From contig JAFGSL010000279.1 in assembly GCA_016934645.1 (NCBI GenBank), forward strand, positions 1 through 42,782: a DNA stretch of 42,782 nucleotides. Reading direction: 5' to 3'. This document shows, one piece after another, positions 2,413 through 42,684 of the stretch (position 1 is the first letter of the stretch; each line of letters begins with the position of its first letter). The notes beneath the pieces are model-generated. The model was given only the letters and a program-made list of their open reading frames with translations, ran no database searches and was not told the DNA's origin. Source of the stretch: Anaerolineae bacterium (lineage in GTDB: Bacteria; Chloroflexota; Anaerolineae; B4-G1; SLSP01). Made by a program: the position numbers and the translations under genes.

Positions 2413-2478
2413 GTCAGCAGATTGAGCAGATGAAGCAGATTTCAGGCTGGCAGTGAAAAATCTGCTCAATCTGCTGAC
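2413..2478. repeat. 18-bp inverted repeat with 9-bp word array
   Basis: The arms 2413-2430 and 2461-2478 are perfect 18-bp reverse complements. The left arm is part of three 9-base units at 2417-2443 (GCAGATTGA, GCAGATGAA, GCAGATTTC), so this is also one of the periodic word repeats of this window. It lies between rtcB and the convergent aminotransferase gene, just before an intrinsic terminator. Confidence 0.8.
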
Positions 2479-2481
2479 CTG

Positions 2482-2510
2482 GCCCGACTTGTATAAAGTC
2501 GGGCTTTATT
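2482..2510 (+). terminator. Intrinsic terminator of rtcB
   Basis: A 9-bp stem, GCCCGACTT (2482-2490) with AAGTCGGGC (2496-2504), around a short GTATA loop is followed by TTTATT. The T tract runs into the stop codon of the convergent aminotransferase gene (2506-2508), so the terminator overlaps that gene's end. Confidence 0.75.
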
Positions 2511-3732
2511 TGTGCTTCAGTTCGTCTTTTAGCGCGATACCAAGGCGGTGGATGCCTTCGACGATGAGATCTGGCTGCGCGTTGGAGAAATTCAGGCGCA
2601 TGGCATTGTATCCGCCGTCTTCGTGAGGGTAGAAATTGACTCCCGGCACGTAAGCCACTTTGTTTTCCAACGCGTGCGGCAACAGAGCTAGTGTATCGAT
2701 GCTCTCCGGCGCGCGTGCCCACAGGAAAAGTCCACCTTGTGGTTGTGTCCAGCTTGATTCCTCGGGCCAGAATTCGCTGAGAGAATCGAGCATCACGTCA
2801 CGGCGCTCCTTGTAGACCTGACGGATTTTGCGTACGTGGGCTTTCAAAATGCCGCGTTGCGCCACGTCATTCGCAATCATCTGATCGAAAGTGCTGCTGT
2901 GCAGGTCGGCACCCTGTTTGGCCTGCACCAGCCGGAGCGCAATCTCTGCCGGGGCGACGCTCCACCCGATGCGCAGGCCCGGTGTCAGTGTTTTCGAGAA
3001 CGTCCCCAGGTAGATGGTGCGCTCCGGGGCCAGCGCGGCGATGGGGATGATATCCTCGCCTGTATAGCGTAGCGCGCCGTAGGGATCATCTTCGACGATG
3101 AGAAGATCGTGTTTGCGGGCGATTTCCACGAGCAAGCGACGCCGCTCCTCGGGGAGGGTGGTGCCGGCCGGGTTGTGAAAATTGGGCAGGACGTAGATGA
3201 AGCGTATCGGGGTTTGTTTGACGATATCTTCTAGCAATTCCACTTGCATGCCGTTGTCGTCGAGTGGAACGGTGGTGAATTCAGCCTCGTAGGCGCGCCA
3301 TGCCTGGATGGCTCCCAGGTAAGTGGGGCGACCTGTGACTACGTAGCTTCCGGGATCGATGAAGATTTTGCCGATTAGGTCGAGGGATTGCTGTGAACCG
3401 GTGGTGATGAGGATGTTGTCTGGGCTGTGTTGGATGCCGTATTTGCCCATAGAATCGGCGAGAAATTCGCGTAAAGGCCGGTAGCCTTCGGTCGTGCTGT
3501 ATTGCAGTGACAGTTTGGGAGCTTCACGCAACAGGAAATTGCATGCTTCCTCGATCTCTCGCACCGGGAATAATTCCGGAGCCGGTAGCCCACCGCCAAA
3601 AGAAATCATGTCGGGTTGCTGGGTGAGTTTGAGCAGTTCCCGTATGGTCGAACTCTTCATCTTCCGCGCGCGTTTTGATAGAAAGCGTTCCCAGTCAACG
3701 TGTGTGGTTGCCGAATTTGCATAAACGGTCAT
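2506..3732 (-). CDS. PLP-dependent aminotransferase, LysN / 2-aminoadipate type
   Basis: This is a cytoplasmic fold-type I aminotransferase of the class I/II group that includes 2-aminoadipate aminotransferase (LysN), kynurenine aminotransferase II and the MocR enzymatic domain. Visible are ISFGGGLPAPELFP near the N-terminus, TTGSQQSLDLIGKI, YVLPNFHNPAGTTLP, VEDDPYGALRY and FSKTLTPGLRIGW, in which Lys247 should carry the pyridoxal phosphate. There is no N-terminal GntR helix-turn-helix, so it is not a MocR regulator. The frame is open for 32 more codons upstream, but GGGAGG eight bases before ATG 3732 fixes the start, giving 408 residues. The substrate cannot be read from sequence; branched-chain, aromatic or aminoadipate transamination are all possible. 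The upstream leader may carry an attenuator (features at 3754-3916). Confidence 0.9.
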   Translation of the reverse strand: MTVYANSATTHVDWERFLSKRARKMKSSTIRELLKLTQQPDMISFGGGLPAPELFPVREIEEACNFLLREAPKLSLQYSTTEGYRPLREFLADSMGKYGIQHSPDNILITTGSQQSLDLIGKIFIDPGSYVVTGRPTYLGAIQAWRAYEAEFTTVPLDDNGMQVELLEDIVKQTPIRFIYVLPNFHNPAGTTLPEERRRLLVEIARKHDLLIVEDDPYGALRYTGEDIIPIAALAPERTIYLGTFSKTLTPGLRIGWSVAPAEIALRLVQAKQGADLHSSTFDQMIANDVAQRGILKAHVRKIRQVYKERRDVMLDSLSEFWPEESSWTQPQGGLFLWARAPESIDTLALLPHALENKVAYVPGVNFYPHEDGGYNAMRLNFSNAQPDLIVEGIHRLGIALKDELKHK

Positions 3733-3753
3733 AATTACCTCCCAAAGTAAGGT

Positions 3754-3784
3754 AAAAAGCCTGTCAACACTTTGACAGGCTTTT
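3754..3784 (-). terminator. Terminator-like hairpin in aminotransferase leader
   Basis: On the minus strand a 13-bp perfect stem (arms 3784-3772 and 3767-3755) closes a 4-base loop and runs into UUUUU at 3758-3754, about 20 bases before the aminotransferase start codon. No gene ends here: the flanking genes are divergent, so there is nothing upstream to terminate. That position argues for an attenuator instead of an ordinary terminator. The alternative pairing is described in the findings. Confidence 0.65.
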
Positions 3785-3865
3785 ATTGATGCGAGTATGT
3801 CCCAGGCTAAAAAAGCCTGGATACACAAACAGGCATAGCATAATGCATAAACTGAATTGCCCCAT
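3764..3865 (-). CDS. Candidate leader peptide, 33 aa
   Basis: This short frame begins at ATG 3865, nine bases after AGGAG (3879-3875) on the minus strand, and ends with a TGA at 3766-3764 inside the terminator-like hairpin. It is rich in Leu, Phe, Cys and Ser (beginning MGQFSLCIMLCLF) and lies wholly in the leader of the aminotransferase gene. Size, ribosome-binding site and overlap with two alternative hairpins fit a leader peptide for transcription attenuation. The composition shows no run of a single amino acid that would name the controlling tRNA, so it may be a chance frame. Confidence 0.35.
   Translation of the reverse strand: MGQFSLCIMLCLFVYPGFFSLGHTRINKSLSKC
3802..3820 (-). promoter_or_regulatory. 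Upstream leader hairpin (competing stem)
   Basis: On the minus strand CCAGGCU (3820-3814) pairs with AGCCUGG (3808-3802) over a five-U loop, with further GUAU/AUAC pairing outside. Its 5' arm CAGGCUUUU (3819-3811) is also a perfect 9-base complement of AAAAGCCUG (3784-3776), the 5' arm of the terminator-like stem, so the two hairpins can be replaced by an antiterminator pairing. Confidence 0.6.
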
Positions 3866-3887
3866 GGATTTCGTCTCCTGTGCTCTT

Positions 3888-3916
3888 ATTGTATGCCAGG
3901 CGGATACCATCGTCAA
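3888..3916 (-). promoter_or_regulatory. Sigma-70 promoter of aminotransferase gene
   Basis: On the minus strand TTGACG (3916-3911) is separated by 17 bases from TACAAT (3893-3888). Transcription would begin near 3881, giving a leader of about 150 nt before the ATG at 3732. This is one of the best promoter matches in the window. Confidence 0.65.
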
Positions 3917-3964
3917 ACGTTATCTGGGCATGAATGAGGTGACTTTCCTCGTAATAGTTGTAAC

Positions 3965-3992
3965 TTGCCCTGCTTGTTCACTATGTTAAAAT
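3965..3992 (+). promoter_or_regulatory. Probable promoter of sugar transferase gene
   Basis: TTGCCC (3965-3970) and TAAAAT (3987-3992) are separated by 16 bases, placing a start near 4000, some 35 bases before the ATG at 4034. The intergenic region 3733-4033 thus holds two divergent promoters and the aminotransferase leader. Confidence 0.5.
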
Positions 3993-4033
3993 GTTACTGT
4001 TGATGGTATTAACTCGAATGTGAGGTTAGAGGG

Positions 4034-5446: not shown

Positions 5447-5486
5447 TGCTCTGGTGGTGACTGATTTATGACCTTGGTAATGGCCT

Positions 5487-6290
5487 ATGACAGATAAACT
5501 CTCTTCCGGCACTGTGCCTTCAGCTTTGTATACCGAGCACTACTTCTTGGGGGTGTGCGAAGGATACCAGGAGTTCCTTTCCGGTGAGGGAATGTATCTC
5601 TCGCAGCGCCTGACCGAGGCTTTGGCTGTGGCGGGAATCGCGCCAGGCATGACTGTATTGGATGTGGGCTGTGGACGCGGTGAAATGCTGCGACACACCA
5701 CGCGTTTGGGCGCGTGTGCTTTCGGCATTGACTACGCTGAGGTGGCCGTGCGTCTTTCTCGGCAAATTGCGGCTGAAGTGGCCGATGAGGGTGGGGAGGC
5801 TGGCGTCTATCAGGCCTCAGCACTGTATTTGCCGTTTGAGGCAGAGACCTTCGACCGCGTGTTGATGTTCGATATCGTGGAGCATCTCTATCCTGAGGAA
5901 CTGGCACAGGCACTGGTAGAGGCACGGCGCGTGCTCAAACCAGGCGGACGGATCATCGTTCATACTGCGCCAAACGTCTTGTATGACCGGTATGCCTATC
6001 CCGTTGTGCGTCTGGTGCGCGTGTTGATGGGACAGGGGGCGCGATACCCTAAAAACCCACGTGAGATTATCCCCGAAAATGTCCACGTTCACGTCAACGA
6101 ACAGTCGCTCTTCAGCTTGGGGCGGAATCTGCACCGGAGTGGGTTCCAGCAGGTGAAATCTTGGCTGAGTACGCCGCCCCAGTTCAGACAGGAAAACGTC
6201 ATCTTCCGGCTGGCGCGCTGGCTATTGTTCACTGTGCCGCCGTTCAGTTGGTTTTTCGAGCGCGAGGTCTTCGCTGTGGGGGAGAGATGA
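5487..6290 (+). CDS. Class I SAM-dependent methyltransferase
   Basis: This 267-residue cytoplasmic methyltransferase has the Rossmann-fold motif I VLDVGCGRGEML near residue 57, an acidic motif II region, FDRVLMFDIVEHLYPEEL as motif IV, and VLKPGGRIIVHTAPN as post-motif. The layout matches the Methyltransf_11/UbiE-like group, whose members methylate small molecules, lipids or sugars; the substrate is not readable. The start codon at 5487 has only a weak ribosome-binding site, 40 bases after the sugar transferase, so it may be translated by coupling or start elsewhere. Its stop overlaps the start of the sortase gene (ATGA), so the two are translationally coupled. Confidence 0.88.
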   Translation: MTDKLSSGTVPSALYTEHYFLGVCEGYQEFLSGEGMYLSQRLTEALAVAGIAPGMTVLDVGCGRGEMLRHTTRLGACAFGIDYAEVAVRLSRQIAAEVADEGGEAGVYQASALYLPFEAETFDRVLMFDIVEHLYPEELAQALVEARRVLKPGGRIIVHTAPNVLYDRYAYPVVRLVRVLMGQGARYPKNPREIIPENVHVHVNEQSLFSLGRNLHRSGFQQVKSWLSTPPQFRQENVIFRLARWLLFTVPPFSWFFEREVFAVGER

Positions 6291-7249
6291 AAGACCATCG
6301 CTACGTGGATGAGCTGAGCCTGGAAGAGTTGGAAGAAGTGCTACAGGTGCGGCGACGCGACGAACGGATGAAGCGTATACAGAGCAAGTCGCCTTTGAAT
6401 GCGAGCAGGCCGAATGCAGTTAAGTCGCTCGACCCACTCCGTGATCAGGCTGCGCCCCCGGTACAGCCTCTCGATGTGGCACCGTCTGCAACACGCGATG
6501 CGGATTCTGCGCCGCGTTACAGCGCCTTTGTTGAACCCGGCAAACCCAAGCGCGAGCGTCGTCCGATCAAATGGCGCTGGATTGGGGATCGTTTATTGTT
6601 ATTGGTGGAGGTTCTTGCGCTATTTGGCTTTGTGCTGATCGTGGCGCGTATGGTCACGACGGTGCAAGGGCTAAATGAGGAAAGCCGTGTTGTCCAGGCA
6701 CCCCCGACGCCGACGCCTGCCCCTTTCATCGGAGTGGTGGTGCTGCCTGGCGGGCATACCCCGCCGGATGCGCAGCGCAATTCAGAGCCCGCACCAATTC
6801 CCGCGCACTTGCAGGGTTTGGTAGCGCAAATCACGCCGCTGCCTGTTCCCACGCCCGGCCCAGAACATCCACAGCGTATTGTCATCCCTATCATTGACGT
6901 AGACGCGCCGGTTGTCAAAGGTGACGATTGGGAATCACTCAAGATGGGGGCTGGATATCACATCGGTAGCGCCAATCCTGGGGAACGCGGCAACTGCGTC
7001 ATTTCAGCGCACAATGATATCTATGGCGAAATCTTCCGCGATTTATCGAAGGTGAACATTGGTGATGAAATTCTCGTGCATACGCAGACACAGGTCTATC
7101 GTTACGTCGTCGAGCAAACGCGCATCATCGAGCCGACGGATGTAAGTGTAATGGCCCCGACAAGTAGTCCGGTGCTGACGTTAATCTCTTGCTATCCCTA
7201 TGGCATCGATAGCCACCGCATCGTAGTTATAGCGGCGCTAAAGCCGTAG
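6287..7249 (+). CDS. Sortase, membrane-anchored transpeptidase
   Basis: Sortases cleave a C-terminal sorting motif of exported proteins and join them to the cell surface or to each other. This 320-residue protein has a charged, Pro-rich cytoplasmic N-terminus (1-100), one membrane helix (about 103-122), a Pro/Thr-rich linker (PPTPTPAP), and a C-terminal sortase barrel. The catalytic triad is visible: His242 in ISAHND, Cys302 in TLISCYPYG and Arg311 in SHRIVV. The pattern is closest to class D/E sortases. The frame is open further upstream (to 6161), but ATG 6287 overlaps the methyltransferase stop and follows GGGGGAGAG, so it is preferred. No LPxTG-type substrate was found in the window. The cytoplasmic extension of 100 residues is long for a sortase. 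Confidence 0.9.
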   Translation: MKDHRYVDELSLEELEEVLQVRRRDERMKRIQSKSPLNASRPNAVKSLDPLRDQAAPPVQPLDVAPSATRDADSAPRYSAFVEPGKPKRERRPIKWRWIGDRLLLLVEVLALFGFVLIVARMVTTVQGLNEESRVVQAPPTPTPAPFIGVVVLPGGHTPPDAQRNSEPAPIPAHLQGLVAQITPLPVPTPGPEHPQRIVIPIIDVDAPVVKGDDWESLKMGAGYHIGSANPGERGNCVISAHNDIYGEIFRDLSKVNIGDEILVHTQTQVYRYVVEQTRIIEPTDVSVMAPTSSPVLTLISCYPYGIDSHRIVVIAALKP

Positions 7250-7318
7250 TCCTAACCCGGATAGATCAGAACCAAAAGGTTCCTCGTTGTCCGTTGTGCA
7301 AGCGCCCGGGTGTTAGGC

Positions 7319-9547: not shown

Positions 9548-9551
9548 TTAG

Positions 9552-9594
9552 AGACTGGGGATCAGGGATTGGGCCATCGCTGAATTCCTGATCC
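9552..9594. repeat. Heptad word repeat and fold-back after recO
   Basis: Three heptads, GAGACTG, GGGATCA and GGGATTG, run from about 9551 to 9571. GGATCAGG (9559-9566) pairs with CCTGATCC (9587-9594), so the element can fold into a hairpin between recO and the next gene. There is no clear T tract. Confidence 0.6.
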
Positions 9595-9628
9595 TAAACG
9601 TGAACCTTTGTCATGAAAAGGATGGTTG

Positions 9629-11180: not shown

Positions 11181-11297
11181 ATTGAAAATTGAGAGATTGG
11201 AAATTTGTTGATTTGGGTGGGCGTCGCGTGATTGAGTAATGGAGTTACTCGCCGATTCTTTCATTCTGAATTCGTAATTCTTTATTTGCAATTCGCA
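11181..11297. repeat. Two heptad arrays before nitroreductase gene
   Basis: The spacer 11173-11310 contains two arrays with period 7. At 11181-11215 the units are ATTGAAA, ATTGAGA, GATTGGA, AATTTGT and TGATTTG. At 11263-11297 the units are ATTCTGA, ATTCGTA, ATTCTTT, ATTTGCA and ATTCGCA, and the next bases are the AAGGAGGT ribosome-binding site. A small hairpin GAGTAA/TTACTC lies between them. Confidence 0.75.
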
Positions 11298-11310
11298 AAG
11301 GAGGTCACCG

Positions 11311-16108: not shown

Positions 16109-16210
16109 GTTGTAATCTGAAACCTCTTTGTTTGAATTACCCAGGGTTTTTTATCATTCTCGTGGTTTAGGAGACACTCGTGTGTTGTTTTGCCGCTAAA
16201 GCGACTTTTT

Positions 16211-16263
16211 AGGGGGATTTTTTTTGTGGCGGGGCTCTCTGCCGCCATAAAAAAATCCCCCTT
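16211..16263. repeat. Long inverted repeat with T8/A7 arms
   Basis: AGGGGGA plus eight T and TGGCGG on the left (16211-16232) matches CCGCCAT, seven A and TCCCCCT on the right (16242-16263), with one bulge. The transcript would form a hairpin of about 21 bp. It could be a second terminator or the relic of a small mobile element. It sits 24 bases before the promoter of the next gene. Confidence 0.7.
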
Positions 16264-16286
16264 TTATCTCTGGTCTTTTGCTGCAG

Positions 16287-17796: not shown

Positions 17797-17933
17797 GGCT
17801 ATCGCATTTGGTCAAACGGATGCTCCAGCCCCCGTCCTAGGGGGCGGCTTCGCAACGAGAGCGCCGGTTTTGCAGCTTGATTTGCCAGGACCGCCCCAGG
17901 GACAGGGCTTCGAGCGTTAAATGCGATAGCCCT
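17795..17933. repeat. 139-bp palindromic element with 15-bp terminal inverted repeats
   Basis: AGGGCTATCGCATTT (17795-17809) is exactly repeated in inverse at 17919-17933. Inside, GCTCCAGCCCCCGTCCTAGG-type sequence on the left partly matches the reverse complement of the right side (CCGCCCCAGGGACAGGGCTT), so the whole element can fold into a long imperfect stem. There is no coding frame. The structure fits a MITE-like non-autonomous element or a structured RNA; its left end overlaps the last codon of the HAD gene. I see nothing else in 17797-18040 apart from a promoter. Confidence 0.75.
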
Positions 17934-17975
17934 ACGAACCGGGTACTGTGTAAACCTGCTCATGCTCTTTTCCTG

Positions 17976-17981
17976 TATAAT
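17976..17981 (+). promoter_or_regulatory. Probable -10 box before DUF2156 gene
   Basis: A consensus TATAAT stands 60 bases before the ATG at 18041. No good -35 hexamer is at the right distance (AACCTG at 17 bases). The call is tentative. Confidence 0.4.
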
Positions 17982-18040
17982 AGACTAATGACTATCAAGC
18001 TGATCATGGCTAAGTTACTTTTAGGAGGCAAAATCGCTTT

Positions 18041-20856: not shown

Positions 20857-20929
20857 GAATGAGTGAATCGGCGAATGGGTAATAGTCCAATTCGCCGATT
20901 CTTTTATTCGCTCATTTGTTGATTTTGTT
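20857..20929. repeat. Octad word arrays forming a shared terminator
   Basis: The left side is built of 8-base units (GAATGAGT 20857, GAATCGGC 20865, GAATGGGT 20873). The right side has the complementary-word units ATTCGCCG (20890), ATTCTTTT (20898), ATTCGCTC (20906), ATTTGTTG and ATTTTGTT. The 12-bp arms 20865-20876 and 20890-20901 are perfect complements followed by TTTTATT, so the array works as a terminator for the NERD gene. It runs through the pyrG stop codon and encodes the last pyrG residues. Confidence 0.8.
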
Positions 20930-22576: not shown

Positions 22577-22590
22577 CTGGTAAAAGTCAT

Positions 22591-22757
22591 CCGGTAGTCG
22601 TTAGTCGGATAGTCCAACAGTCAAAAGGCCTCGGCGCGCTTGAGGCGACTCCGGCAGACCAAGACTCGTGTTAGTCATTTTGGCTTTTGCGCGAGGTGGA
22701 CTATACTATCCGGGCTAAAGACTGTTCGACTAAAGACTGTTCGACTAAAGACTACCG
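22591..22757. repeat. AGTC/GACT word arrays facing each other, before ppgK
   Basis: On the left (22593-22623) words ending in AGTC are spaced 7-8 bases apart (GGTAGTC, GTTAGTC, GGATAGTC, CAACAGTC). On the right a 15-base unit CTAAAGACTGTTCGA occurs twice exactly (22715-22744), then once more in part, with GACT words at 7-8-base steps to 22757. The left words are complementary to the right words, so the 165-base region can fold back. It ends 15 bases before the ppgK ribosome-binding site; the stretch 22526-22778 has no gene. Confidence 0.75.
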
Positions 22758-22778
22758 GACTACTAGAGAGGTGGAAAG

Positions 22779-27221: not shown

Positions 27222-30200
27222 TCAGAAGTTCCGCAGAACGAGCGGCAGGAAGATGTATTCCAGACTGGTCTCGACCTGGATGGTAGCGTGGTAGCTGTCG
27301 CTGTAGCCGAGTGTGTCGGTGATGGTCAGAGTGACGGTGAAGGTGTCCTTGGTCGCGAAGGTGTGGATGACGTTTTGGGTGAAGACGAGCGGCGTGTTGT
27401 CGCCAAAGTTCCAGGCCCACGCGGCGATAGGCGGCACGTCTGTGGTCGAGGTGTCGGTGAAGTAGACCGTCACGCCGATTTCAGTCAGGGTAGCGCTCTG
27501 GTCAAAGGAGGCTGCCAGCGTGGGCGGATTGACCTGCACCAGGGAAGTGTAGAAATCGGTGTACCCTAGTGTGTCGGTCACGGTCAGTTTCACAGTGAAG
27601 TCGCCGTCGGTGCTGTAGGTGTGGCTGGCGTCTTGTGTTAAGACCGGCGCGCTCGCATCGCCAAAGTCCCAAGCCCACGCGGCAATCGGTGGTACATCCG
27701 TCGTGCTAGTATCCGTGAAGTGGACCGTCGTGCTGACAACGGTGCTGGCCGCACTCTGCGTGAAGCTGGCGACCAGGGTCGGGGCTGTGACCGTGACCAT
27801 GCCGGTCGTCGTCGCCGCATAACCACACGTGTCGGTGACGGTGAGGGTGACGGTAAAGGTGCCGTCGGTGATGTAGGTGTGGCTAGCGTTTTGTGTGAAG
27901 ACCGGCGCGCTATCGTCGCCGAAGTCCCAGGTCCATTCTGCGATGGCAGGCCCGTTCGTGGTTGATGTGTCAGTGAAGTACAGCGTGGTGTTGACGAGTG
28001 CGGTGGCTGCACTTTGGTTAAATCCAACATCGAGCGTGGGCGCGAGCACGGCGAAGCTGACCGGTGCGCCGACAGCGCTACTCACACCCTGGTCGCTGTC
28101 CACCACGCGATAGTCGTCGTTGATGACCGTACCCTGGCAGGGCAGTGTGGCTGCGAGTGTCTCCGTGGCGACGCCGCCAGCCACCAGTTCATCGATGTAC
28201 CACCACATCCATGGCTGGATGATTGTGCCACCGCTGACGTTTTCCAGCCCCGCTGGGATAGTATCGCTGAGGACGATGCCCGTCCCGACGCCATTGCCGG
28301 TGTTGATGACTGTCAGTGTGTAGGTGATGGGCTGTCCGGCGACTGCTGTGCTTTCGTAAGCTTTGCTAACCTCGAAGTATGGCAGATCGATAGCGACTTC
28401 GTAGCTGTCCACGTTGTTGTCGTAGAACGGCTCGATATCGACCATCGGTTGGTCGCTGGCGATCTCTACCCAGTTGGTGAAGCTATCCAGCCCATCGACG
28501 GTCTCCGTGATCCGCGCGGTCAGGTGGACCTCGTTCCAGTCCCCGCCATTCATTTGCCCGAGATGCCACGTGAGATCGTTACCATCGATGGCGGGCATCC
28601 AGGGACACCAGTTGCTTCCCCCACACCAGCGCAGCGTCGATGTAACGTATTCCATCTCTACCGGTAGTGTGTCTGTGAGCCAGGCATCGCCCGTCATATT
28701 CCACCACAACTGCCAGTGCTCGTTGTTGTTGCCGAAGGTCAGACTGAAGGTGACGAGTTCGCCGGGCAGGAAGTTGCCTGCGACGAGGTCTTTCTCGACG
28801 TAGAGGTCGGGGCCGGTGGTAAGGACTGCGTCGGCGGTGTTGTCTGCGCTGTTGGTGTCATCCGGCACGTTACCCACCTCGACGGTGTTGGTGAAGATCA
28901 GGCCGAAGGGCAGCGGCTCGGTGTCCGTGATGGTGTAGAAGTTGAAGTCGATGCGTTCTCCGGGATAGAGCGACTCTAGCGTGACGGTCAGGCTGTGGTT
29001 TGCCGGATCGTCGCCCCAGTTCCACCAGCGCCAGTAGTTCAGGCCGACGCCACTGTTCATATACATATCGGCCGGATAGGTGTCGGTGATCAGAACGGGT
29101 GCAATGACGTCGTCGCCGATGTTTTCGACGGTGACGTTCCACCAGGCCTGGCGTGTGTTCTCGCCCCAATCGTCCCAGCCGCCGCTCTTGTGGACGCGCA
29201 GGTTGGGGCCGTGGTCGTTGAGGGTTTCGGACCAATGGCTGACGTTGTCCTCGTAGCTGTCCTCGTCTGGCTGCGGGCTGATCTTGACCGTGTTCGTCAG
29301 CACTGTACCCGGTTGCGCGGCAGCGTCTATGTTCAGCCGCACTTCGAAATTGTCACCGTAGCCGTTGGGCAGCCCGGAGATTTCCCAGACCACGTACTCT
29401 GATGTGATCAGTACGGGTACAACCGGCGTTGAGCTGCCCTGATCGTGGTGCCACGCCTCGCGGAAGGTGGTACTCACCGGCAGTGTGTCGGTAATGTGGA
29501 TCGTGTCGTTGATCGCGACGTTGCCGTTGTTGTGATAGCCGATGTTGTAGCTAAGCTCGCCGCCGGGGACCAGTTGGCCCCAACTCCAGTCTTTATTGAT
29601 ACTCAGGTTGGTGTGCGGTTCCCCGACCCAAACGTCATTCGAGGTTTCGTTGTCATCAGACTCCAGGTCGTTGGACGCCGAGATCACGGCGCTGTTCCAG
29701 AGTTGCGTGCCGGGCTGGACGTCCGGCCAAACGTGCACGATCAGGTAGACTTCGTTGCACCAGCCACTCGGTATCGCCGGATACGTGACGACAAGATTGC
29801 TGCCATCGTTGAATACTTCCGTCCAGCCAGGATACTGTCCCCACCAATTGACCAGTGTCGTCGACATCGGCAAGGTGTCGGTGACGGTGACGCCGGTGCT
29901 GGTTGTGCTACCATTGTTACAGACGTTGACCGCCCACACGAAATCCGAGTCGGGGAGCGGATCGCCGGTCCAGGCGTTCTTGCCCACGTTGAGATGGGTG
30001 TCGTTCGACTGGACGTCGCTCCACATTTCTGTATACCTGTCGTTCGGGTCACCTGGATCGTAGGTGCTGGACGAGATACTCGCGCTGTTGCCGACCTGCT
30101 GGCCCGCGGAGGCGGTGACGTGGGTGAAAACGTAGAACTCGATCCATTCGCCGGGGTCGAGGGTGCCCAGGTCCCACATCAGCGGATCACCGGACGTGCC

Positions 30201-33200
30201 GGTGCCCGTGTGCGGGAGGCCGGAGGTGTCGGTGAGGTAGGTCATCCCGTACAGGATTGTGTCGCTAATCACCACGTTCTCGGCAGCGGCGTCGCCCTCG
30301 TTCCGGTATTGGATGCGCATCAGGAAGTTGCCGCCCTCCGCCGGCGCGCCGTAAGATTCCTTCTGGATGCGCAGATAGGGCGCTGGCTCGTGGAAGGCGT
30401 TGAATACCTGATCGCGATCGGGTTCGTAGTAGCTTACGCCGATCTCCTGACCCGGTTGGATGTCCCATTCTGTGCCCGGATCCCATCCGCAGTAGTAGGT
30501 GTCGATGCCGTCGGGATAGACGTTGTCTTGCTTGTTGGGCGCCCATCCATCCGCGCCCCAGGTGTGGCACTCAATGTCGATGACCTGCGCAATCTCCGGT
30601 GCCAGCACGGTACCTTCGATGTTGTCCAGGGCTGAATCGACGACACCTGTGATATCGCCGATGTGGAGGCTGTTGGTATACCCGTTGTCCAGCGCGCCAT
30701 GCACCCAGTCACCCGCTTCGATGTCCGGTCGTTCGGGCGACCAGGGATCTCCCAGGTTGCTGGAGAAGCCGGTGCGGTCGCCCCACCAGGGGATTACACC
30801 GGTGGTCATCTCCGCCGTGGCCTTGATGCTGCCACCACTGTCGGTGACGGTAATCCAGAGGGTGTGCCCTGCCTCGTACTCGCCTTCAACCCAATCGTGA
30901 CCATAGTTGACGTTGAGGCTCAGGTCGCGCGTCCGGAAGCGCTGGCTGATGTTGACCGCGGCGTAGTCGATCATCGTTTCGATGCGGACGTCGCCCTGGC
31001 TGGCGCGCGGAACGTCGCCGTAGGTTGCCGTGAAGTTGCCGCTGTCATCGGTCCACACGTTTTGATTGCCGCCGGGCCGGTGGATATTGACGTTCACCTG
31101 CTGGTTGAGCCAGCCGCCGATTTGCCCGTAGACGATGTCGGCTGTGGAGTCGGCCTCAGCCGTAAACGGATCGGGGATCTCGATGGTGATGGGCATACTG
31201 CCTTCGCCCGCTGCCACGACGAGCGTGTCGCCGGGTTCGAGCGGGCTGGCGCCGTTGGTATCCCAGCAACCATTGCAGCCGGGATCGGCCCACACGACGA
31301 CTTCGGTGTACGGTGTGGTGACGGTGACCCAGCCGGGGACAGCGTTGCCCCGGATGTCCGCGCTGCTGCCGGGGTACATCTGGATATCGACGCGATCCAC
31401 TTCGCCACGGCTAAAAGCGACGTCGGTGTAGATGTTGTCGGCAGGCGTTGGGTCGCCGGTGGGCGTGGTGATCTCCACGGTGTTGGTAAACCATTGCATC
31501 GGTTCTCCCGGATTGTCCAGGTCCATCTCGAAGTAGAACGTCAGGCTCCAGCCTGGATCAATCTGCTCTAGCTCCCAGAGAAGCTGACCATTGCCACTGT
31601 CGTCGGTGAAGGTGACGTTCCAGGGGAACCAACCTTCCCACCACCGGTTGCCGTTGAAGGTGGCATCTGCGGGGAGCGTGTCCGTGATGAGCACGTTGTT
31701 GATGGTCATATCGCCGACGTTCTGGACGTCGAAGACATATTGCAAGCGCCCGTAGTTGTCGCGCCACTCGTGCCACTTGGTCACGCGCAGGTTCGGCCCC
31801 TCGGGGTAAACCATACTTTCGGCACAGTGGGTATTGTTTGCGGGGGTGTTTTCGAGGAAGTCGCCCCCGATTTCTGCGCAGTTGGTGATGGGGCCGGGGG
31901 TGGCGGTTTCGTCGATGTCCACCTCGAGCATCAGGCCGGCGTTTTCGTTGACGGGGACCATGCCAAGGTCCCAGACGACGTAATCCTCGGTGATGGTAGC
32001 CGGTTCGATCGGTTCCCACCATCCGATGTTGCCAGACTGGACCCAGGTGTTCAATGCCCGGAGCGATGTCCCTTCGGGCAGCGTGTCGGTGAGCCAGGCG
32101 TGCGTGGCGATGTTGCCCCGGTTATTGAAAGAGATGCCGTAGTTTTGATGCCCGCCGGGCGTCTGTTGGCTCGGCCACGCGCTCTTCCAGACTTCCATAT
32201 CGTAGCGCGCGCCGCTGACGACGGTGTTGTTGTCGAAGTACATGTTGTTGTCCGGGTTGACGTCGCCATCGGTGGTGATCACGACAGTGTTCTCCAACCG
32301 CGTGCCAATGGGAACGCCGCCGTCTAGTTCCAGCGTCAGGCGGATGCGCCCGCCCATATCGCCGGGAATGCCCGCCGGTGCTTTGAGGACGAACTGCCCG
32401 CCAGTGGTGATGACTTCGGTCCACAACCCACCCCAGTCGTTTTCCTCTTCCCAACCGACGACGGTTGTGCCTGCCGGGAGGGTGTCCGTGAGCCATACAG
32501 TGCCGTTCGCGCCATTGCCGTCGCTGCCGTAATCGATGCCGTAGGTGAATTCCTGACCGGGCATTGGATCGTTGGGATCGGCGCCTTTGTTAACCCAGAC
32601 GCCGTGATCCGCGTTATCTACCCACACACCGCCGGAGCAACTGTTATCGTTATCTGTATCCGGGTCACCGGGGCTGGTGGTTGCAATCGTGACGCAGTTG
32701 TTCTCCAGGTCGGTCTGTGGTGGTGTCCCACCATCGACGTTGACCGCGACGTAGAACTCGAGGTTTGTATAAGGCGGGATATCCCCCACCGTAAACGTGA
32801 CGACGCTGCCGCCATCATCTACAGGAAAACCGGCTGAGTTGTCCGCATACGTTGTGTTGGCCGGGAGGTCGTCGACGATGGTGACGTTCTCGGCGATGCC
32901 GCTTTCCTGGTTGCCGTAGTAGATGCGGTAGAGATACGTCTCGCCGGGCACGGCGATGCCGGGCGTCGTTTGCTTCTCGATGTAGACGTCCGGTTGTGTA
33001 ATTTCGAAGGAGTATTGGGTCTGGTGATTATGGTTTCCGGCGTGGTGAACGTTGAATCGATCGCCATACCAGATGTCGTGGGGTGGGTTGCCGTCGCTGG
33101 CGAAGTCGGCGGTGTAGACGCCGCTACTATCGACCTGGACGCCGTCAATGGTGCTCCAGCACCCGCCGTCGCGGCAATCCACATTGATATGGATCTGGTT

Positions 33201-35939
33201 ATTTGCCGGCGCGGTGCCGGTGACGATGTCGGTGTCGATGTCGGGATAGCCCGTGATCGCCACGACCTCGACGTATTCGACGATGCCATTGCCGAAATCG
33301 ACCCAGACGACGCGCCCGGGCTGGATGGTGTTGTCCGGGAACTCCAACCGGTAGCTGGTGGGGCCTTGATCGCCGGAGCCTCCCAGGGTGGTACCTGTGT
33401 CTACAACTGCGCCACCGGATTCGGTGATGGTGATAAGAAGGGTGCTACCTGGTGTTGCACCGCTTCCCCAGACCTCATTGTAGCCGTTCGCCCTGTAGTT
33501 CGCGACGATCTGCGGCCAGTCGAAGTTCTGGCAGACCTGGTTCGCGTCCTCGTTTTGGTAGCATAGACGCACGCTTTGCCCCCATTCGAGGTCGCCGTTA
33601 CCATAAAAGTCCTGCAATTGATCGGGGACGATGGCGAAATCTCCGTTTTCATCGGTCGGGACGAACCCGCTGCCTTGATCACTGAGATTGACGTTTAGCA
33701 GTGAGTTGGGCGGGCCGTGACCGGTTACACGATCGCTGGCTTCGTCCATTTGAGCTAGAAGGTCTGGAATGACGACGACCTGATCGAATCCGGCGGAGGA
33801 CTGGATCTGGATTTCATCGCTCGCTTCGATCTGGACATTCTCGCTGTTGAAGTCGTTGAAACCGATACTGCCATCATCAAATGACGTACCGGTGAGTTGG
33901 GCCTTGAACCCCCCGCCGCTGTCACGCAGCGTGATCGTGTAAGGGGTGTTCCCCGGTCTTAGGCTTCCGAGGACGCCGTTGTACCCCGGCCAGACGCGCA
34001 CGTAGTCGACTAACTGCGTGATGCGGTCGATGTATTCATCGGCGGTGCGGTGGTTAATTTCGTAGACGACGGCATTGCGCACGTCGAAACCCACAACGTC
34101 GGCGGAGAAGGGGCTACCGGCCGTGATGAGGATGTCGAATGTACCGCCGACAGGATAGAGTACTTGGTTTGACCAGCCGTCCCAATGCTCGCCCCATATC
34201 TCGACGCGGTCGATGGACGGTTCAACCGTGCCGGTGAAGCGATCGTTGGCCGTGTCGGCTTCAGCGATGACAGTCATCACCTCAACGACGCCTTGCCAGC
34301 CGTATCCATCGCTCTCGACCGTGATCACGTCGCCGGGCGCGATGTCGGGCAGGCCGTCGTCCGGGTTGAAGGTGTAGTTACCCCACTCATCCGTGCCCTT
34401 ATCGTAGACGTAAGTCATACCATCCGAGGCGCTGGTGAGCGTCAGTGTCACTAAGTGTCCAATAGCCATATGCCCGGGGGGCGCGATGGCGTATCCGTTT
34501 ACGCTATCATAGACTTGGTTGACATCGACGGAGCCTTGGGCCGGTGCCCAGAGCGCAAGGTCGTCGCCTTCGGCATCGGCGCTATAGACGCCCCCCCAGT
34601 TTCCGGGCATCAGGTTCGCGATACCGCCGAATTCGATCGTGTACACGCCCGTGGCGTCGGCTACCGTGGCATTGGAGACGTGTTGGTAGCCGTTTGTCGT
34701 CAGGTTGCTAGCGCGACCGCGCACGACCGCGCCTGGCGCCGCCTCACCGAGGATACGGTCGTTTGCGGCGTCGATGATAGGCGGTGTGTAGTGCTCGACC
34801 GTGCGACTCATCACGATCCCGCCCTCAACCTCGACGACGATGATGTCGGTTTCCCCAAAATCCGGGGTTAGGTTAAAGTAACCATTATCGGCGCTGGTGG
34901 TGTCCACTGCCTGATCCCTGATGGTGACGCCATCCGAGAGATAGACCGTGGCCGTAACCGCGACGTTCGGTGTTGTTTTGGCGGTGATCGTACCGAAGGG
35001 GAATGGCAACACAGCTAACCGTGATCCGTAGATGTCATGGTAGACTTCGATGCCATCCCGAAGGTACGCGAGGGTCGCCGTCTCGTCGGCGAAGAAATCC
35101 CATGTGCTGAAGAGTTCGATGGTGAAATTGCCAAAGCTGTCTGTCCAGACGGTCTCGCTGACCGTCGGTGTGCCGGATAAACCGGTGTAGATGGTGACGT
35201 TCACCGGGGAACTCGTGCCGCCGATAGCGCCGGTCACGATTTCGTTATGTGGGTTGATCTGTGCCGTTATCGTGCGCAGCGTTGTGGCCGCGACCAGGAT
35301 GCTATTCTCGTAGATGGCGAGGGCTTCGCCGCCTACCAGGTCGACCTGGTCGCCCCAGTCGTCGTAGAGCGTCGTCCAGAAGAAGCCGATGCCGTCCGCC
35401 ACAGCCGCACCGACCTGCACGCCATCCACAGTTACGGTGACCGTTGAGCCTGGGCCGACGAGACCCCACACCTGGTTCCGGTCGAGGCTGACGACGAAGG
35501 GCGTGTCGCTGGGCAACGGTGGCGCAGCGATGAACGCTGGCTCTGCGGCGATGCCCGGCATGCCCGCATCTATACCTGCGAGGACAGACAGTGGGGTACC
35601 TAGAGTCGATGGTGCGTGGTCTGTCTGCTGCGCGAATTTGCCTGCATAGTCCCGATCCTGCTGCGGACGTATCCCAGTGGACGCGGCTGGCAGGTATTGC
35701 GGCGCAATACCGGTGATCGGTTCGGGACGTGTGTCCGGGACAGCTTCATCAGCGGGATCGTGTGTGACATCGACGAGGACGGCGTTGAGGGCGCCATCAT
35801 TCGCTGACGTGATTGGAGCTTCGACCAAAGGGTGCCCGAGGCTCTTTTGGGCTGCGGGGTGTAGCAAAACTGAAAAGACGATCAGCAATGTACCCGCTAA
35901 CCCCAGTGCCATAGAAAAAAGGAAAGATTTACGTTTCAT
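27222..35939 (-). CDS. Giant secreted DUF11/PKD repeat protein (2905 aa)
   Basis: This is probably a cell-surface or extracellular structural/adhesive protein. MKRKSFLFSMALGLAGTLLIVF is a Sec signal peptide; AGGAGG lies eight bases before ATG 35939. The region from about 165 to 980 holds Ig-like and carboxypeptidase-regulatory-like modules (repeated NDRxxGxxxP, VxGTAPxN turns). Ten DUF11-type modules (xVxKxxxP.PGexxxYxixxxNxG....vxDTLP) start near residues 983, 1111, 1245, 1380, 1851, 1978, 2106, 2241, 2373 and 2516; a second block of Ig-like modules lies at 1500-1850. Three PKD domains (WDFGDxSAPVxTQ, SHTYxTDGxFTVxLTVTD) fill 2633-2890, and the protein ends SLEYIFLPLVLRNF. It is acidic and rich in Trp, Asp, Thr and Asn. 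No enzymatic domain was seen. The C-terminal tail lacks an LPxTG, hydrophobic and basic signal. Confidence 0.92.
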   Translation of the reverse strand: MKRKSFLFSMALGLAGTLLIVFSVLLHPAAQKSLGHPLVEAPITSANDGALNAVLVDVTHDPADEAVPDTRPEPITGIAPQYLPAASTGIRPQQDRDYAGKFAQQTDHAPSTLGTPLSVLAGIDAGMPGIAAEPAFIAAPPLPSDTPFVVSLDRNQVWGLVGPGSTVTVTVDGVQVGAAVADGIGFFWTTLYDDWGDQVDLVGGEALAIYENSILVAATTLRTITAQINPHNEIVTGAIGGTSSPVNVTIYTGLSGTPTVSETVWTDSFGNFTIELFSTWDFFADETATLAYLRDGIEVYHDIYGSRLAVLPFPFGTITAKTTPNVAVTATVYLSDGVTIRDQAVDTTSADNGYFNLTPDFGETDIIVVEVEGGIVMSRTVEHYTPPIIDAANDRILGEAAPGAVVRGRASNLTTNGYQHVSNATVADATGVYTIEFGGIANLMPGNWGGVYSADAEGDDLALWAPAQGSVDVNQVYDSVNGYAIAPPGHMAIGHLVTLTLTSASDGMTYVYDKGTDEWGNYTFNPDDGLPDIAPGDVITVESDGYGWQGVVEVMTVIAEADTANDRFTGTVEPSIDRVEIWGEHWDGWSNQVLYPVGGTFDILITAGSPFSADVVGFDVRNAVVYEINHRTADEYIDRITQLVDYVRVWPGYNGVLGSLRPGNTPYTITLRDSGGGFKAQLTGTSFDDGSIGFNDFNSENVQIEASDEIQIQSSAGFDQVVVIPDLLAQMDEASDRVTGHGPPNSLLNVNLSDQGSGFVPTDENGDFAIVPDQLQDFYGNGDLEWGQSVRLCYQNEDANQVCQNFDWPQIVANYRANGYNEVWGSGATPGSTLLITITESGGAVVDTGTTLGGSGDQGPTSYRLEFPDNTIQPGRVVWVDFGNGIVEYVEVVAITGYPDIDTDIVTGTAPANNQIHINVDCRDGGCWSTIDGVQVDSSGVYTADFASDGNPPHDIWYGDRFNVHHAGNHNHQTQYSFEITQPDVYIEKQTTPGIAVPGETYLYRIYYGNQESGIAENVTIVDDLPANTTYADNSAGFPVDDGGSVVTFTVGDIPPYTNLEFYVAVNVDGGTPPQTDLENNCVTIATTSPGDPDTDNDNSCSGGVWVDNADHGVWVNKGADPNDPMPGQEFTYGIDYGSDGNGANGTVWLTDTLPAGTTVVGWEEENDWGGLWTEVITTGGQFVLKAPAGIPGDMGGRIRLTLELDGGVPIGTRLENTVVITTDGDVNPDNNMYFDNNTVVSGARYDMEVWKSAWPSQQTPGGHQNYGISFNNRGNIATHAWLTDTLPEGTSLRALNTWVQSGNIGWWEPIEPATITEDYVVWDLGMVPVNENAGLMLEVDIDETATPGPITNCAEIGGDFLENTPANNTHCAESMVYPEGPNLRVTKWHEWRDNYGRLQYVFDVQNVGDMTINNVLITDTLPADATFNGNRWWEGWFPWNVTFTDDSGNGQLLWELEQIDPGWSLTFYFEMDLDNPGEPMQWFTNTVEITTPTGDPTPADNIYTDVAFSRGEVDRVDIQMYPGSSADIRGNAVPGWVTVTTPYTEVVVWADPGCNGCWDTNGASPLEPGDTLVVAAGEGSMPITIEIPDPFTAEADSTADIVYGQIGGWLNQQVNVNIHRPGGNQNVWTDDSGNFTATYGDVPRASQGDVRIETMIDYAAVNISQRFRTRDLSLNVNYGHDWVEGEYEAGHTLWITVTDSGGSIKATAEMTTGVIPWWGDRTGFSSNLGDPWSPERPDIEAGDWVHGALDNGYTNSLHIGDITGVVDSALDNIEGTVLAPEIAQVIDIECHTWGADGWAPNKQDNVYPDGIDTYYCGWDPGTEWDIQPGQEIGVSYYEPDRDQVFNAFHEPAPYLRIQKESYGAPAEGGNFLMRIQYRNEGDAAAENVVISDTILYGMTYLTDTSGLPHTGTGTSGDPLMWDLGTLDPGEWIEFYVFTHVTASAGQQVGNSASISSSTYDPGDPNDRYTEMWSDVQSNDTHLNVGKNAWTGDPLPDSDFVWAVNVCNNGSTTSTGVTVTDTLPMSTTLVNWWGQYPGWTEVFNDGSNLVVTYPAIPSGWCNEVYLIVHVWPDVQPGTQLWNSAVISASNDLESDDNETSNDVWVGEPHTNLSINKDWSWGQLVPGGELSYNIGYHNNGNVAINDTIHITDTLPVSTTFREAWHHDQGSSTPVVPVLITSEYVVWEISGLPNGYGDNFEVRLNIDAAAQPGTVLTNTVKISPQPDEDSYEDNVSHWSETLNDHGPNLRVHKSGGWDDWGENTRQAWWNVTVENIGDDVIAPVLITDTYPADMYMNSGVGLNYWRWWNWGDDPANHSLTVTLESLYPGERIDFNFYTITDTEPLPFGLIFTNTVEVGNVPDDTNSADNTADAVLTTGPDLYVEKDLVAGNFLPGELVTFSLTFGNNNEHWQLWWNMTGDAWLTDTLPVEMEYVTSTLRWCGGSNWCPWMPAIDGNDLTWHLGQMNGGDWNEVHLTARITETVDGLDSFTNWVEIASDQPMVDIEPFYDNNVDSYEVAIDLPYFEVSKAYESTAVAGQPITYTLTVINTGNGVGTGIVLSDTIPAGLENVSGGTIIQPWMWWYIDELVAGGVATETLAATLPCQGTVINDDYRVVDSDQGVSSAVGAPVSFAVLAPTLDVGFNQSAATALVNTTLYFTDTSTTNGPAIAEWTWDFGDDSAPVFTQNASHTYITDGTFTVTLTVTDTCGYAATTTGMVTVTAPTLVASFTQSAASTVVSTTVHFTDTSTTDVPPIAAWAWDFGDASAPVLTQDASHTYSTDGDFTVKLTVTDTLGYTDFYTSLVQVNPPTLAASFDQSATLTEIGVTVYFTDTSTTDVPPIAAWAWNFGDNTPLVFTQNVIHTFATKDTFTVTLTITDTLGYSDSYHATIQVETSLEYIFLPLVLRNF

Positions 35940-37667: not shown

Positions 37668-37687
37668 ACCAAAATACCTACAATGGG

Positions 37688-37760
37688 GGACTAGGGATTG
37701 GTGACTGGTGACTAGGTGACGAAGTTTGAAAACCCCAATCCCAAATTCCTAGTCCTTGTT
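37688..37760. repeat. Heptad arrays between reductase and GH78-like gene
   Basis: Heptads at 37688-37722: GGACTAG, GGATTGG, TGACTGG, TGACTAG, GTGACGA. A second set at 37733-37760: CCCCAAT, CCCAAAT, TCCTAGT, CCTTGTT. GGACTAGG (37688) pairs with CCTAGTCC (37748-37755), and GATTGG with CCAATC, so the two arrays form the arms of a hairpin followed by TTGTTTTT, possibly a terminator. The SD of the next gene starts 9 bases later. Confidence 0.8.
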
Positions 37761-37780
37761 TTTCTGAGGAGGACAATATA

Positions 37781-40219: not shown

Positions 40220-40222
40220 CGA

Positions 40223-40274
40223 AGTCGAACGGATTTTCCGACTTTCGACTTTAGACATTGGACTTTCGACTATC
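40223..40274. repeat. Five GACTNNN heptads before sulfatase-like gene
   Basis: GACTTTC, GACTTTA, GACATTG, GACTTTC and GACTATC occupy 40240-40274 without a gap. AAGTCG at 40223-40228 can pair with the first unit. The array ends 5 bases before AAGGAG, the ribosome-binding site of the next gene. Confidence 0.85.
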
Positions 40275-40288
40275 TAAAAAGGAGCATA

Positions 40289-41746: not shown

Positions 41747-41749
41747 GCT

Positions 41750-41848
41750 GGATGTTGGATGTTGGATGCTTGAAGCTGGAAACTTGACTTTGGACTTTGG
41801 ACTTTCGACCTTCGACTTTCGACTAACGACTACCTGACTATCAGACTC
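41750..41848. repeat. Twelve-unit drifting heptad array before sugar isomerase
   Basis: From 41750 to 41833 twelve heptads follow without a gap. They start as GGATGTT (twice), change through GGATGCT, TGAAGCT and GGAAACT to TGACTTT and GGACTTT (twice), then to CGACCTT, CGACTTT, CGACTAA and CGACTAC. Two offset GACT words (TGACTAT, CAGACTC) follow to 41848. The next features are GAGGAGGTT (ribosome-binding site) and the ATG at 41866. This is the longest and cleanest of the periodic spacers. The region 41747-41865 holds nothing else. Confidence 0.9.
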
Positions 41849-41865
41849 TTTGAGGAGGTTACACT

Positions 41866-42684
41866 ATGCTAAAACTATCGTTTACAACTTTGGGTTGCCC
41901 CACCTGGAACTTGCGCCAGATTACGGAAAATGCGGCGGCGATGGGCTACGACGCGGTGGATTTTCGTGGCTTGCAGGACGCGCTAGACATCACAACCACG
42001 GCGGAGTTCACCACCGATCTGGCAGCGACGAAGCGCCTGTTCGCCGATCTCGGCGTCGCGATCTCCGGCATTGCCACGTCGGCGCGCTACGCCACCGCCG
42101 ATCCCGTCGAGCGCGAGAAGCAGTTCGACGAGACCCGGCGCAACATGGAACTCGCCGCGAAACTCGATGCGCGCGTTTTGCGCGTCTACGGCGGGCGCGT
42201 CCCGGAGGGCCACACCGTCGATTCGATCCTGCCGGCGCTCGTGGAGAACCTGCGCACCATCGGCGACGAAGCCGAGGCGTTCGGCGTGACGCTGGCGCTG
42301 GAAACCCACGACGACTGGACGGACTCCGCGACCTTCGCTCGCTTGATGCGCGAAGCCGACCATTCTCGCGTGCGGGTGCTCTGGGACTTGCACCATCCCT
42401 TCCGCACCAACGGCGAGCAGCCGGACGTGACCTACGCCAACCTCGCGCCGTACACCGTCAGCACCCACGTCAAGGACTCCATCCCTACCGCCGATGGGCA
42501 TCACCAATACGTCCTGCTCGGCGAAGGCGATGTGCCCGTCAAGCGAATGCTCGACCTGCTCGTGACGGGCGGGTACCACGGCTACGCCATCCTCGAATGG
42601 GAGAAACGCTGGATTCCTACCTTGCAAGAGCCGGAAATCGCCTTCCCGCAGTACGTCGCCAAAATGCGCGAGTGGCTGGAATAG
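41866..42684 (+). CDS. Sugar phosphate isomerase/epimerase (xylose isomerase-like TIM barrel)
   Basis: This 272-residue cytoplasmic AP endonuclease 2/xylose isomerase-like barrel is typical of sugar and inositol isomerases or epimerases. It begins LKLSFTTLGCPTWNLRQITENAAAMGYDAVDFR; EFGV-like VTLALETHDDWTDS holds the metal Glu and His, VRVLWDLHHPFRTNGEQP the Asp and His, and YTVSTHVKDS and ILEWEKRW the remaining metal-site residues. The substrate cannot be assigned. GAGGAGGTTACACT precedes the ATG. It closes the four-gene series that starts at 36531 and suggests processing of a released sugar unit. Confidence 0.92.
   Translation: MLKLSFTTLGCPTWNLRQITENAAAMGYDAVDFRGLQDALDITTTAEFTTDLAATKRLFADLGVAISGIATSARYATADPVEREKQFDETRRNMELAAKLDARVLRVYGGRVPEGHTVDSILPALVENLRTIGDEAEAFGVTLALETHDDWTDSATFARLMREADHSRVRVLWDLHHPFRTNGEQPDVTYANLAPYTVSTHVKDSIPTADGHHQYVLLGEGDVPVKRMLDLLVTGGYHGYAILEWEKRWIPTLQEPEIAFPQYVAKMREWLE

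Follow-up and report, generated by a model that had tools for sequence, protein, structure and literature searches.

The window analysed here is the whole 42,782-nucleotide contig JAFGSL010000279.1 of an Anaerolineae bacterium (Chloroflexota; assembly GCA_016934645.1). Its intergenic spacers carry strictly periodic arrays of short words, most of which are also found at numerous loci in related genomes. We consider it about evenly balanced that these arrays represent families of miniature repeats between genes, which spread by copying, then expanded or contracted, and are built on a short word that is recognised. According to this reading, miniature non-coding repeats would invade the gap from the upstream stop codon to the downstream ribosome-binding site, and each family would repeat a short, fixed core word in exact register, the linker bases between the cores being free to vary. 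Words of 9–10 bp would build discrete inward-facing elements of about three words and three inverted words, and words of 7–8 bp would build open-ended arrays with changing copy number. The 9-bp AGCAGATT family has fixed ends, is dispersed, and is present or absent among species; the 7–8 bp class has words common to several loci and large length differences at one orthologous site. A sequence-only reading of the window had described nine such loci, each with a word of its own.

The hairpin at 2413–2478 is one copy of a dispersed palindromic element with the scheme RTC-(AGCAGATTN)3-loop-(inverted)3-GAY. Relatives for comparison (G226, G195, G347, and G368, at 86–88% identity) were chosen by a glycyl-tRNA synthetase search among 396 genomes of the class. 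When the first 20 kb of the window served as BLAST query, 2411–2478 drew numerous short matches with common ends, 78–89% identical where they span the whole length; among the matches listed, we counted by eye about 30 places in G226, 25 in G195, 12 in G347, and 10 in G368, some of them on both strands. Plain BLAST thus found elsewhere an array that homology searches had been expected to miss. Forty-eight distinct complete copies, picked by BLAST with a limit of 3 mismatches per arm, read R-TCAGCAGATTN-AGCAGATNN-AGCAGATT-loop (median 19)-inverted arm-TGA-Y, with R in front of 46 of 48, Y behind 47 of 48, and a length of 64–84 bp (median 77 bp). Over the 96 arms, word positions are conserved at 89–100%, and positions 11, 19, and 20 vary. 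The window copy reads GTC-AGCAGATTG-AGCAGATGA-AGCAGATT-loop-AATCTGCT-CAATCTGCT-GAC; with 3 left units and 2 right units, it is 66 bp long and has one right-hand unit fewer than the complete copies. Because the copies were selected by arm match, an extra check was conditioned on one arm only: in G368, 15 of 28 starts (two exact in-phase words) had an opposite arm in which at least 16 of the 21 word positions matched (mean of 10.3 for shuffles), a count in which elements with two good arms appear twice.

The pattern AATCTGCTNAATCTGC occurred 217 times in G226, 97 times in G195, and 1–5 times in 20 others of 298 genomes searched (excluding G347 and G368); it was missing from the remaining genomes, and the reversed control had no match in all 298. 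At the 2390–2505 site, the element is present in the window, G347, and G195 and absent from G226 and G368. The AGCAGATT family therefore resembles miniature inverted-repeat transposable elements (MITEs) in its discrete ends and many dispersed copies and in its presence or absence at orthologous sites. A plasmid search with window 2405–2485 gave no match, and among viral contigs a single one matched, through a plain TCAGCAGAT direct repeat with no inverted arm in the stretch inspected, that is to say, not the element. In G368, 32 of 37 adjacent 9–10 bp arm pairs within 60 bp face inward, 24 being same-family and 8 mixed-family. Seven of the mixed pairs join AGCAGATT to AACGGATT and, because they share a similar loop by eye, look like copies of a single composite; in the eighth, CACAGAG is paired with AGCAGATT.

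The words form a shared vocabulary. In G368, 119 pairs of 8-bp words were alike at 7 or more of 8 positions, compared with 4.1 in letter-shuffled words; the counts were 33 versus 1.4 for 9-bp words (at least 8 of 9 positions) and 58 versus 22.6 for 7-bp words (at least 6 of 7 positions). The word families, which were named partly by eye, include (i) ATTCGCTG, AACGTTCN, and GACTANNN among the 8-bp words; (ii) AGCAGATTN, AACGGATTN, ACAGGATTN, and CACAGAGNN among the 9-bp words; (iii) the 10-bp GATTCGTGNN; and (iv) GACTTTN, GGGGATT, GTAGACG, and ACGAATN among the 7-bp words, 33 of 42 of which chain into one loose cluster. The window words AGCAGATT, ATTCGCTG, 8-bp GACT, GACTTTC, and GGGATTG belong to this vocabulary. 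Since words recur across many loci, the notion of a separate word for each locus does not hold. Three units of GACTTTN were found in 24 of 194 Cyanobacteriota genomes, and the reversed control word in 16 of 194 (counted by eye). We therefore rejected a universal cross-phylum vocabulary: with a reversed control word also common, 7-mer sharing between phyla proves nothing. The strict three-unit AATCCTGT pattern occurred in 0 of 47 genomes across phyla.

An uptake-sequence explanation, by which single words would be enriched everywhere, was also rejected. Among ten words counted in G368, with spacer counts taken outside scored arrays, enrichment was uneven and five words lay near expectation. AGCAGATT was found 31 times in coding DNA (14 expected) and 22 times in spacers (2.4 expected), AACGGATT 19 times (18 expected) and 39 times (2.5 expected), and ACAGGATT 9 times (13 expected) and 9 times (2.5 expected); GGGGATTG (45 versus 17 expected) and GTAGACGG (44 versus 10) were in excess in coding DNA only. 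The excess of single words in spacers may come from degraded or unscored arms.

Excess periodicity extends to spacers elsewhere, as anticipated. In the 652 kb sampled from G368, 112 of 316 spacers contained an array, compared with 1.4 expected by shuffling and with 4 of 316 equally long coding pieces. Genes and spacers were called by a simple in-house open reading frame (ORF) scorer, not a standard gene caller; with a second training set it gave 111 of 314. The periods of the 112 arrays were 7 (42 arrays), 8 (34), 9 (26), 10 (6), 11 (3), and 12 (1), so that G368 departs from degenerate heptamer repeats of period 7 only. In co-directional spacers, the arrays start a median of 24 bp past the stop codon and end 17 bp ahead of the predicted start, which bears out the proposal that they end near ribosome-binding sites. 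The proposed preference for co-directional genes was weak by count (87 of 229 co-directional, 10 of 35 convergent, and 15 of 52 divergent spacers) and appeared per kilobase as a density in divergent spacers (0.91) about half that in the other orientations (2.0 and 2.1).

Smaller samples, mostly picked because they were homologous to the window or a single stretch of G368, contained arrays in 9 of 23 spacers of G195, 7 of 26 of G226, 5 of 34 of G347, and 0 of 39 of G182, a member of the same family. Of 555 spacers from another 31 genomes of the class, 33 had an array (3.9 expected), 25 of them with period 7–10. The survey of other Chloroflexota thus found arrays well beyond the window, with an uneven spread. 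Among 80 loci around pyrG from several phyla, period-7 arrays occurred in some Chloroflexota (e.g., L003, L010, L013, L015, L031, and L033), and loci outside Chloroflexota had mostly other periods. Period 7–8 arrays were seen in the Chloroflexota spacers L010 11617 and L013 2252 (AGTGATC and AAATCCT), and an Obscuribacterales spacer (L064 14895) contains the array TTAGCAAC of period 7–8.

The arrays of the window, tested by 1000 dinucleotide shuffles per locus, and the fold-back of each stretch, given as z against shuffles, are as follows.

2413–2478, no strand: palindromic 9-bp-word element, copy of the dispersed family, in the convergent rtcB/aminotransferase spacer (2417–2440, period 9, P = 0.004; fold z −5.3).
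2481–2505, forward strand: ordinary terminator-like hairpin with a T-rich tail, adjoining the 2413–2478 element (consensus match only).
9551–9601, no strand: fold-back with GGGGAT(C/T)-like words (9551–9571, P = 0.14, not significant; fold z −4.8).
11263–11298, forward strand: 7-bp AATTCNN array that runs up to the AGGAGG ribosome-binding site of a nitroreductase gene (11263–11297, period 7, P = 0.001).
20857–20925, no strand: 8-bp GAATNNNN/ATTCNNNN fold-back in the convergent NERD-protein/pyrG spacer, extending into the pyrG 3′ end (period 8, P = 0.001; fold z −6.3 for 20857–20911).
22589–22764, no strand: 8-bp GACT/AGTC word fold-back in the divergent pyrG/ppgK spacer, including the 15-bp tandem repeat CTAAAGACTGTTCGA detected by Tandem Repeats Finder (TRF) (22591–22757, P = 0.029; fold z −6.1).
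37687–37765, no strand: 7-bp GGGACTA/GGGATTG array and a second arm complementary to it (37688–37715, period 7, P = 0.002; fold z −1.8 for 37685–37765).
40236–40276, forward strand: 7-bp GACTNNN array directly upstream of the ribosome-binding site of a sulfatase gene, with no fold-back (40240–40274, period 7, P = 0.001; fold z 0.0).
41747–41834, forward strand: two 7-bp word arrays in series, TGGATGT then GACTTTC, between a stop codon and the ribosome-binding site of the next gene (41750–41832, period 7, P = 0.001; fold z −3.6).

Strict periodicity thus stood above shuffles at seven of the nine loci first described, with P ≤ 0.004 at six; the seventh, 22591–22757, was weaker, and its word is visible by eye in orthologous spacers. 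The other two, 9551–9571 and 11181–11215 (P = 0.31), were at chance level. The base composition of the window is 58% G+C, and similarity of its proteins places it in Chloroflexota. Tested spacer by spacer with 300 shuffles, 6 of 21 window spacers had P < 0.01. Arrays scoring at least 11 numbered 6 in 4.5 kb of non-coding DNA, all with periods 7–9, and 10 in 38.3 kb of coding DNA, with periods 6, 10, or 12; one 2905-aa minus-strand ORF (27222–35939) contains several coding repeats of period 6 or longer. Four window arrays (11263, 37688, 40240, and 41750; each P ≤ 0.002) are degenerate intergenic heptamers of period 7, and the GACTTTC word of 41747–41834 fills further spacers of G195 and G368 as well. 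Two further features were seen. A second dispersed element at 16178–16264 was found at 22 places in G368 among the BLAST matches listed (78–85% identical), and its spacer also contains the hairpin GGGGGATTTTTTTT...AAAAAAATCCCCC. The stretch 17797–17931 has palindromic ends, GGCTATCGCATTTGG...AAATGCGATAGCC, and similar ends occur in the pyrG–ppgK spacer of G368.

Orthologous spacers record turnover of the words, which were read there by eye; several score below the array threshold, and gene ends were extrapolated from tblastn. In the pyrG–ppgK spacer, the GACT word is present in the window, in G195, and in G226, where it has expanded to about 30 units, and G368 retains traces. The NERD–pyrG spacer has the 8-bp ATTC word in the window and G368 and the 9-bp AGCAGATT element in G195 and G226. 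At 836–937, the G195 orthologue is an empty site (TAA, 11 bp with a GAGGTG ribosome-binding site, ATG), G368 has GGGGATT and AATTCGT arrays, and G347 and G226 have ACGGATT-like words below threshold. At 5447–5525, the orthologues hold GACTTTC (G195), weak GACT words (G347), AGCAGATT plus GACT (G226), and AACGGATT plus AACGTTCC (G368). The G368 orthologue of 9551–9601 is a 24-bp spacer of GGGGATT array; the 11263 site has 8-bp ATTCGCTG units in G347 and a mix in G226; and the 17797–18040 orthologues hold GACTTTG (G195), AACGTTC words below threshold (G226), and three words (G368). Around locus L159 of G368, one spacer has 38 bp with no array in G226, AACGTTC in G368, and CCCAATC in G195; G368, G347, and G195 all retain GTCTACC, and G195 has an 8-bp array in addition; and GGTAGAC is kept in G368, G226, and G195. 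With some words kept and others replaced, both inheritance and exchange therefore occur. No array was found at 3733–4033 in the window, G347, G195, or G226, or at L159 3168–3317 and 11340–11663 in any genome compared, and the flanks of sulfatase orthologues (four loci, 70–73% identical) held nothing that clearly corresponds to the arrays at 40236 and 41747. Short AGACTACAAAAGTCTC-type insertions were seen in the G195 and G226 orthologues of 3733–4033 (L336 and L337) and not in the window or G347.

Changes in copy number such as that in G226 would be supplied by slippage or unequal recombination. If the arrays were neutral microsatellites, built by slippage and unequal recombination wherever no gene forbids and with words as chance seeds, one would expect the avoidance of coding DNA seen in G368, the roughly 30 units at one orthologous site in G226, and the period-7 excess reported in many bacteria (excerpts of PMC4679880 and PMC4692102). 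We regard this alternative as possible but not probable, since it does not lead one to expect a vocabulary common to many loci, discrete dispersed elements with fixed ends, different word families paired inward, or near-random linkers next to near-invariant cores. The last point comes from comparing neighbouring units. Variation was uneven by phase at P < 0.05 in 19 of 50 longer arrays, and differences at core and linker positions, respectively, were 11/270 and 58/90 for AACGTT (which is its own reverse complement, so that its runs were counted twice), 12/200 and 47/120 for GACTA, 63/555 and 192/333 for GATTC, 7/44 and 14/33 for GACT, 8/60 and 5/10 for ACGAAT, 2/66 and 9/11 for GTAGAC, 3/119 and 16/34 for AGCAGAT, and 1/35 and 9/10 for AACGGAT, a contrast that is overstated because the cores were derived from these very data with at most one mismatch per core allowed. 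Despite this overstatement, linkers this free are not expected of freshly slipped arrays. The core word may be the recognition site of a sequence-specific DNA-binding factor, either a mobiliser or a nucleoid-type protein; the core would then be kept while the linkers drift because the core is what the factor recognises.

Several points weigh against copied repeat families and count, in part, for slippage. The core contrast and the one-arm check have the built-in biases given above. In 34 of 50 arrays, units resemble their immediate neighbours more closely than their third neighbours, as slippage likewise predicts. The 7–8 bp families would also have been copied between loci, for which the evidence is their shared words, and 7-mers are few enough that chance and bias can contribute, as the common reversed control in cyanobacteria illustrates. 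Finally, no mobiliser was found, as RAYT-like Y1 proteins track neither array density nor array words. Y1_Tnp is present in 32 of 42 genomes with no evident relation to array density (4 in G368, 2 in G226, 3 in G195, 2 in G347, and 2 in the array-poor G182; outside the density comparison, 26 in G265, 1 in G322, and 2 in G401). The RAYT-like Y1 transposase gene at L159 13609–14173 is flanked by GGGGAACGCCAGTTCCCC palindromes and not by array words. A search for thirteen vocabulary words near this gene and 9 other Y1 loci yielded a single in-phase pair, of ACGTAAA in L405. The AGCAGATT element has no GTAG or CGTC end tag; its ends are RTCAGCAG...CTGCTGAY. Mobilisation by RAYT was therefore rejected, Y1 genes being found in array-rich and array-poor genomes alike and array words not beside them, although two Y1 loci adjoin 11-bp tandem arrays.

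Those two loci, in genomes G195 and G336, have an 11-bp CCCGTTATGTG array in the left flank of L409 (score 50) and a CACACGACGGG-like array in the right flank of L412 (score 18). Many GGGGAACGCCAGTTCCCC/GGGGATCGCCAGATCCCC palindromes surround the RAYT-like gene in G368 (L159 13224–14809), and similar ones stand at the orthologous place in G226.

The fold-back described at several loci was strong in five of eight window stretches, weak at 37685–37765, and absent at 40236–40276 and at 11181–11297 (z 0.4). Such folding, together with the presence of a complementary same-word array at another place in the spacer for 15 of 108 G368 arrays (0.8 expected), the position of arrays 3′ of genes, and the GC-rich hairpins that stand by eye in place of the element in G226 and G368 at the 2390–2505 site, would suit RNA elements, that is, fast-evolving, interchangeable terminators or mRNA processing or stability hairpins. 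By contrast, 93 of 108 G368 arrays lack a fold-back partner, arrays occur in the divergent G368 spacers as well, and the window copy of the 9-bp family adjoins a separate terminator-like hairpin (2481–2505). The 48 copies of that family gave no sign of arm co-variation: own arms agreed at linker positions less often (0.19) than arms dealt across copies (0.36), agreement over all 28 positions was 24.6 for own and 25.0 for dealt arms, and only 2 of 51 word-position changes were mirrored on the other arm. Their flanks are 57% T ahead and 62% A behind, an order opposite to that of an intrinsic terminator, and we rejected this identity for the family, which lacks the hairpin followed by a T run. 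A search of the window against Rfam gave 0 matches. In the 9-bp family, then, the core word is kept and the hairpin is not, and the terminator and RNA-hairpin roles tested on it, which had been suggested for the arrays, are not supported. We judge an RNA role for the arrays quite unlikely; the hairpin would be a by-product of paired sites rather than a selected feature.

The fixed core, strict register, and free linkers could also be those of arrays that offer multiple binding sites to a nucleoid or regulatory protein (boundary or insulator sites, or IHF/HU-like sites), selected for function and not parasitic. The paired tandem 7–9-mers of Geobacter, proposed as IHF/HU sites (excerpt of PMC2700814), favour this explanation. 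We consider it unlikely, given that arrays are replaced or missing at orthologous sites, which speaks against an essential fixed role, that none of the 39 sampled G182 spacers has an array, and that many words would require many readers. More doubtful than the copied-repeat reading itself is a modular form of it, in which interchangeable arm cassettes (three cores in fixed register) would be maintained in their cores and swapped at the same stop-to-ribosome-binding-site gap by a putative word-reading factor. Such a system is compatible with the mixed-family pairs (AGCAGATT with AACGGATT or with CACAGAG), the orthologous word swaps, and the free linkers; if it were true, the genome would carry a limited common vocabulary in place of homologous spacers.

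Cyanobacterial heptamer repeats of a similar kind carry the name STRR. Comparison with published systems, made with excerpts of the papers cited, revealed likenesses and differences as follows. (i) Geobacter metallireducens has multicopy "global regulator" sites of tandem GTTGCTYN (4 units), TCTCCGTS[Y] (3 units), and MTYCTGA (5 units), tandem 7–9-mers that are mostly paired on opposite strands and occur in tens of copies. Pairing on opposite strands recalls the inward-facing arm pairs of G368, and class 2 resembles by eye the CACAGAG family; Geobacter has few classes with fixed words, whereas many families, mixed-family elements, and open-ended arrays occur here, in about a third of the sampled G368 spacers (PMC2700814). 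(ii) Xanthomonas and Nostoc have degenerate intergenic heptamers (GGGNATC/GGGGA(C/T)T) near stops and starts and between aligned genes, which, at a given gene pair, vary in length and sequence from one related strain to another and for which a G-quadruplex was proposed. The GGGACTA/GGGATTG word of the window is of this type, but one G-rich word type per genome was studied there, and here several words have periods 7–10 and are mostly not G-rich (PMC4692102). (iii) Beggiatoaceae have TAACTGA direct-repeat arrays just upstream of start codons, for which a binding protein was proposed; the intergenic heptamers ahead of starts match some sites here, but a single word is involved and related heptamers are rare as repeats in that genome (PMC4679880). 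(iv) REP families with RAYT, and TIR families, are likewise high-copy intergenic palindromes, but the excerpt describes no internal 9-bp periodicity for them, their GTAG/CGTC tags are not in the AGCAGATT element (PMC3733652), and RAYT-like genes here do not border array words. (v) Chloroflexus aurantiacus has (GATAGRA)n satellites, also tandem heptamers in a Chloroflexota genome, with a single word and, in the excerpt, no paired element described (PMC6749651).

In the open-licence literature, neither the many-worded, cassette-like form with word exchange nor a match to six exact word strings was found. Intergenic short-word repeats as such are already known in other bacteria. Intergenic 7–9 bp arrays have so far been reported piecemeal and under different names, and in the papers cited here their role is unproven. 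The present lineage carries many word families at once, and its orthologous spacers record gain, loss, expansion, and swap. For one family, two things that are usually confounded have been separated, the core word being kept and the hairpin not; therefore, the question of a word-reading protein becomes directly testable. Spacers annotated as terminators or small RNAs by fold energy alone may be such repeats.

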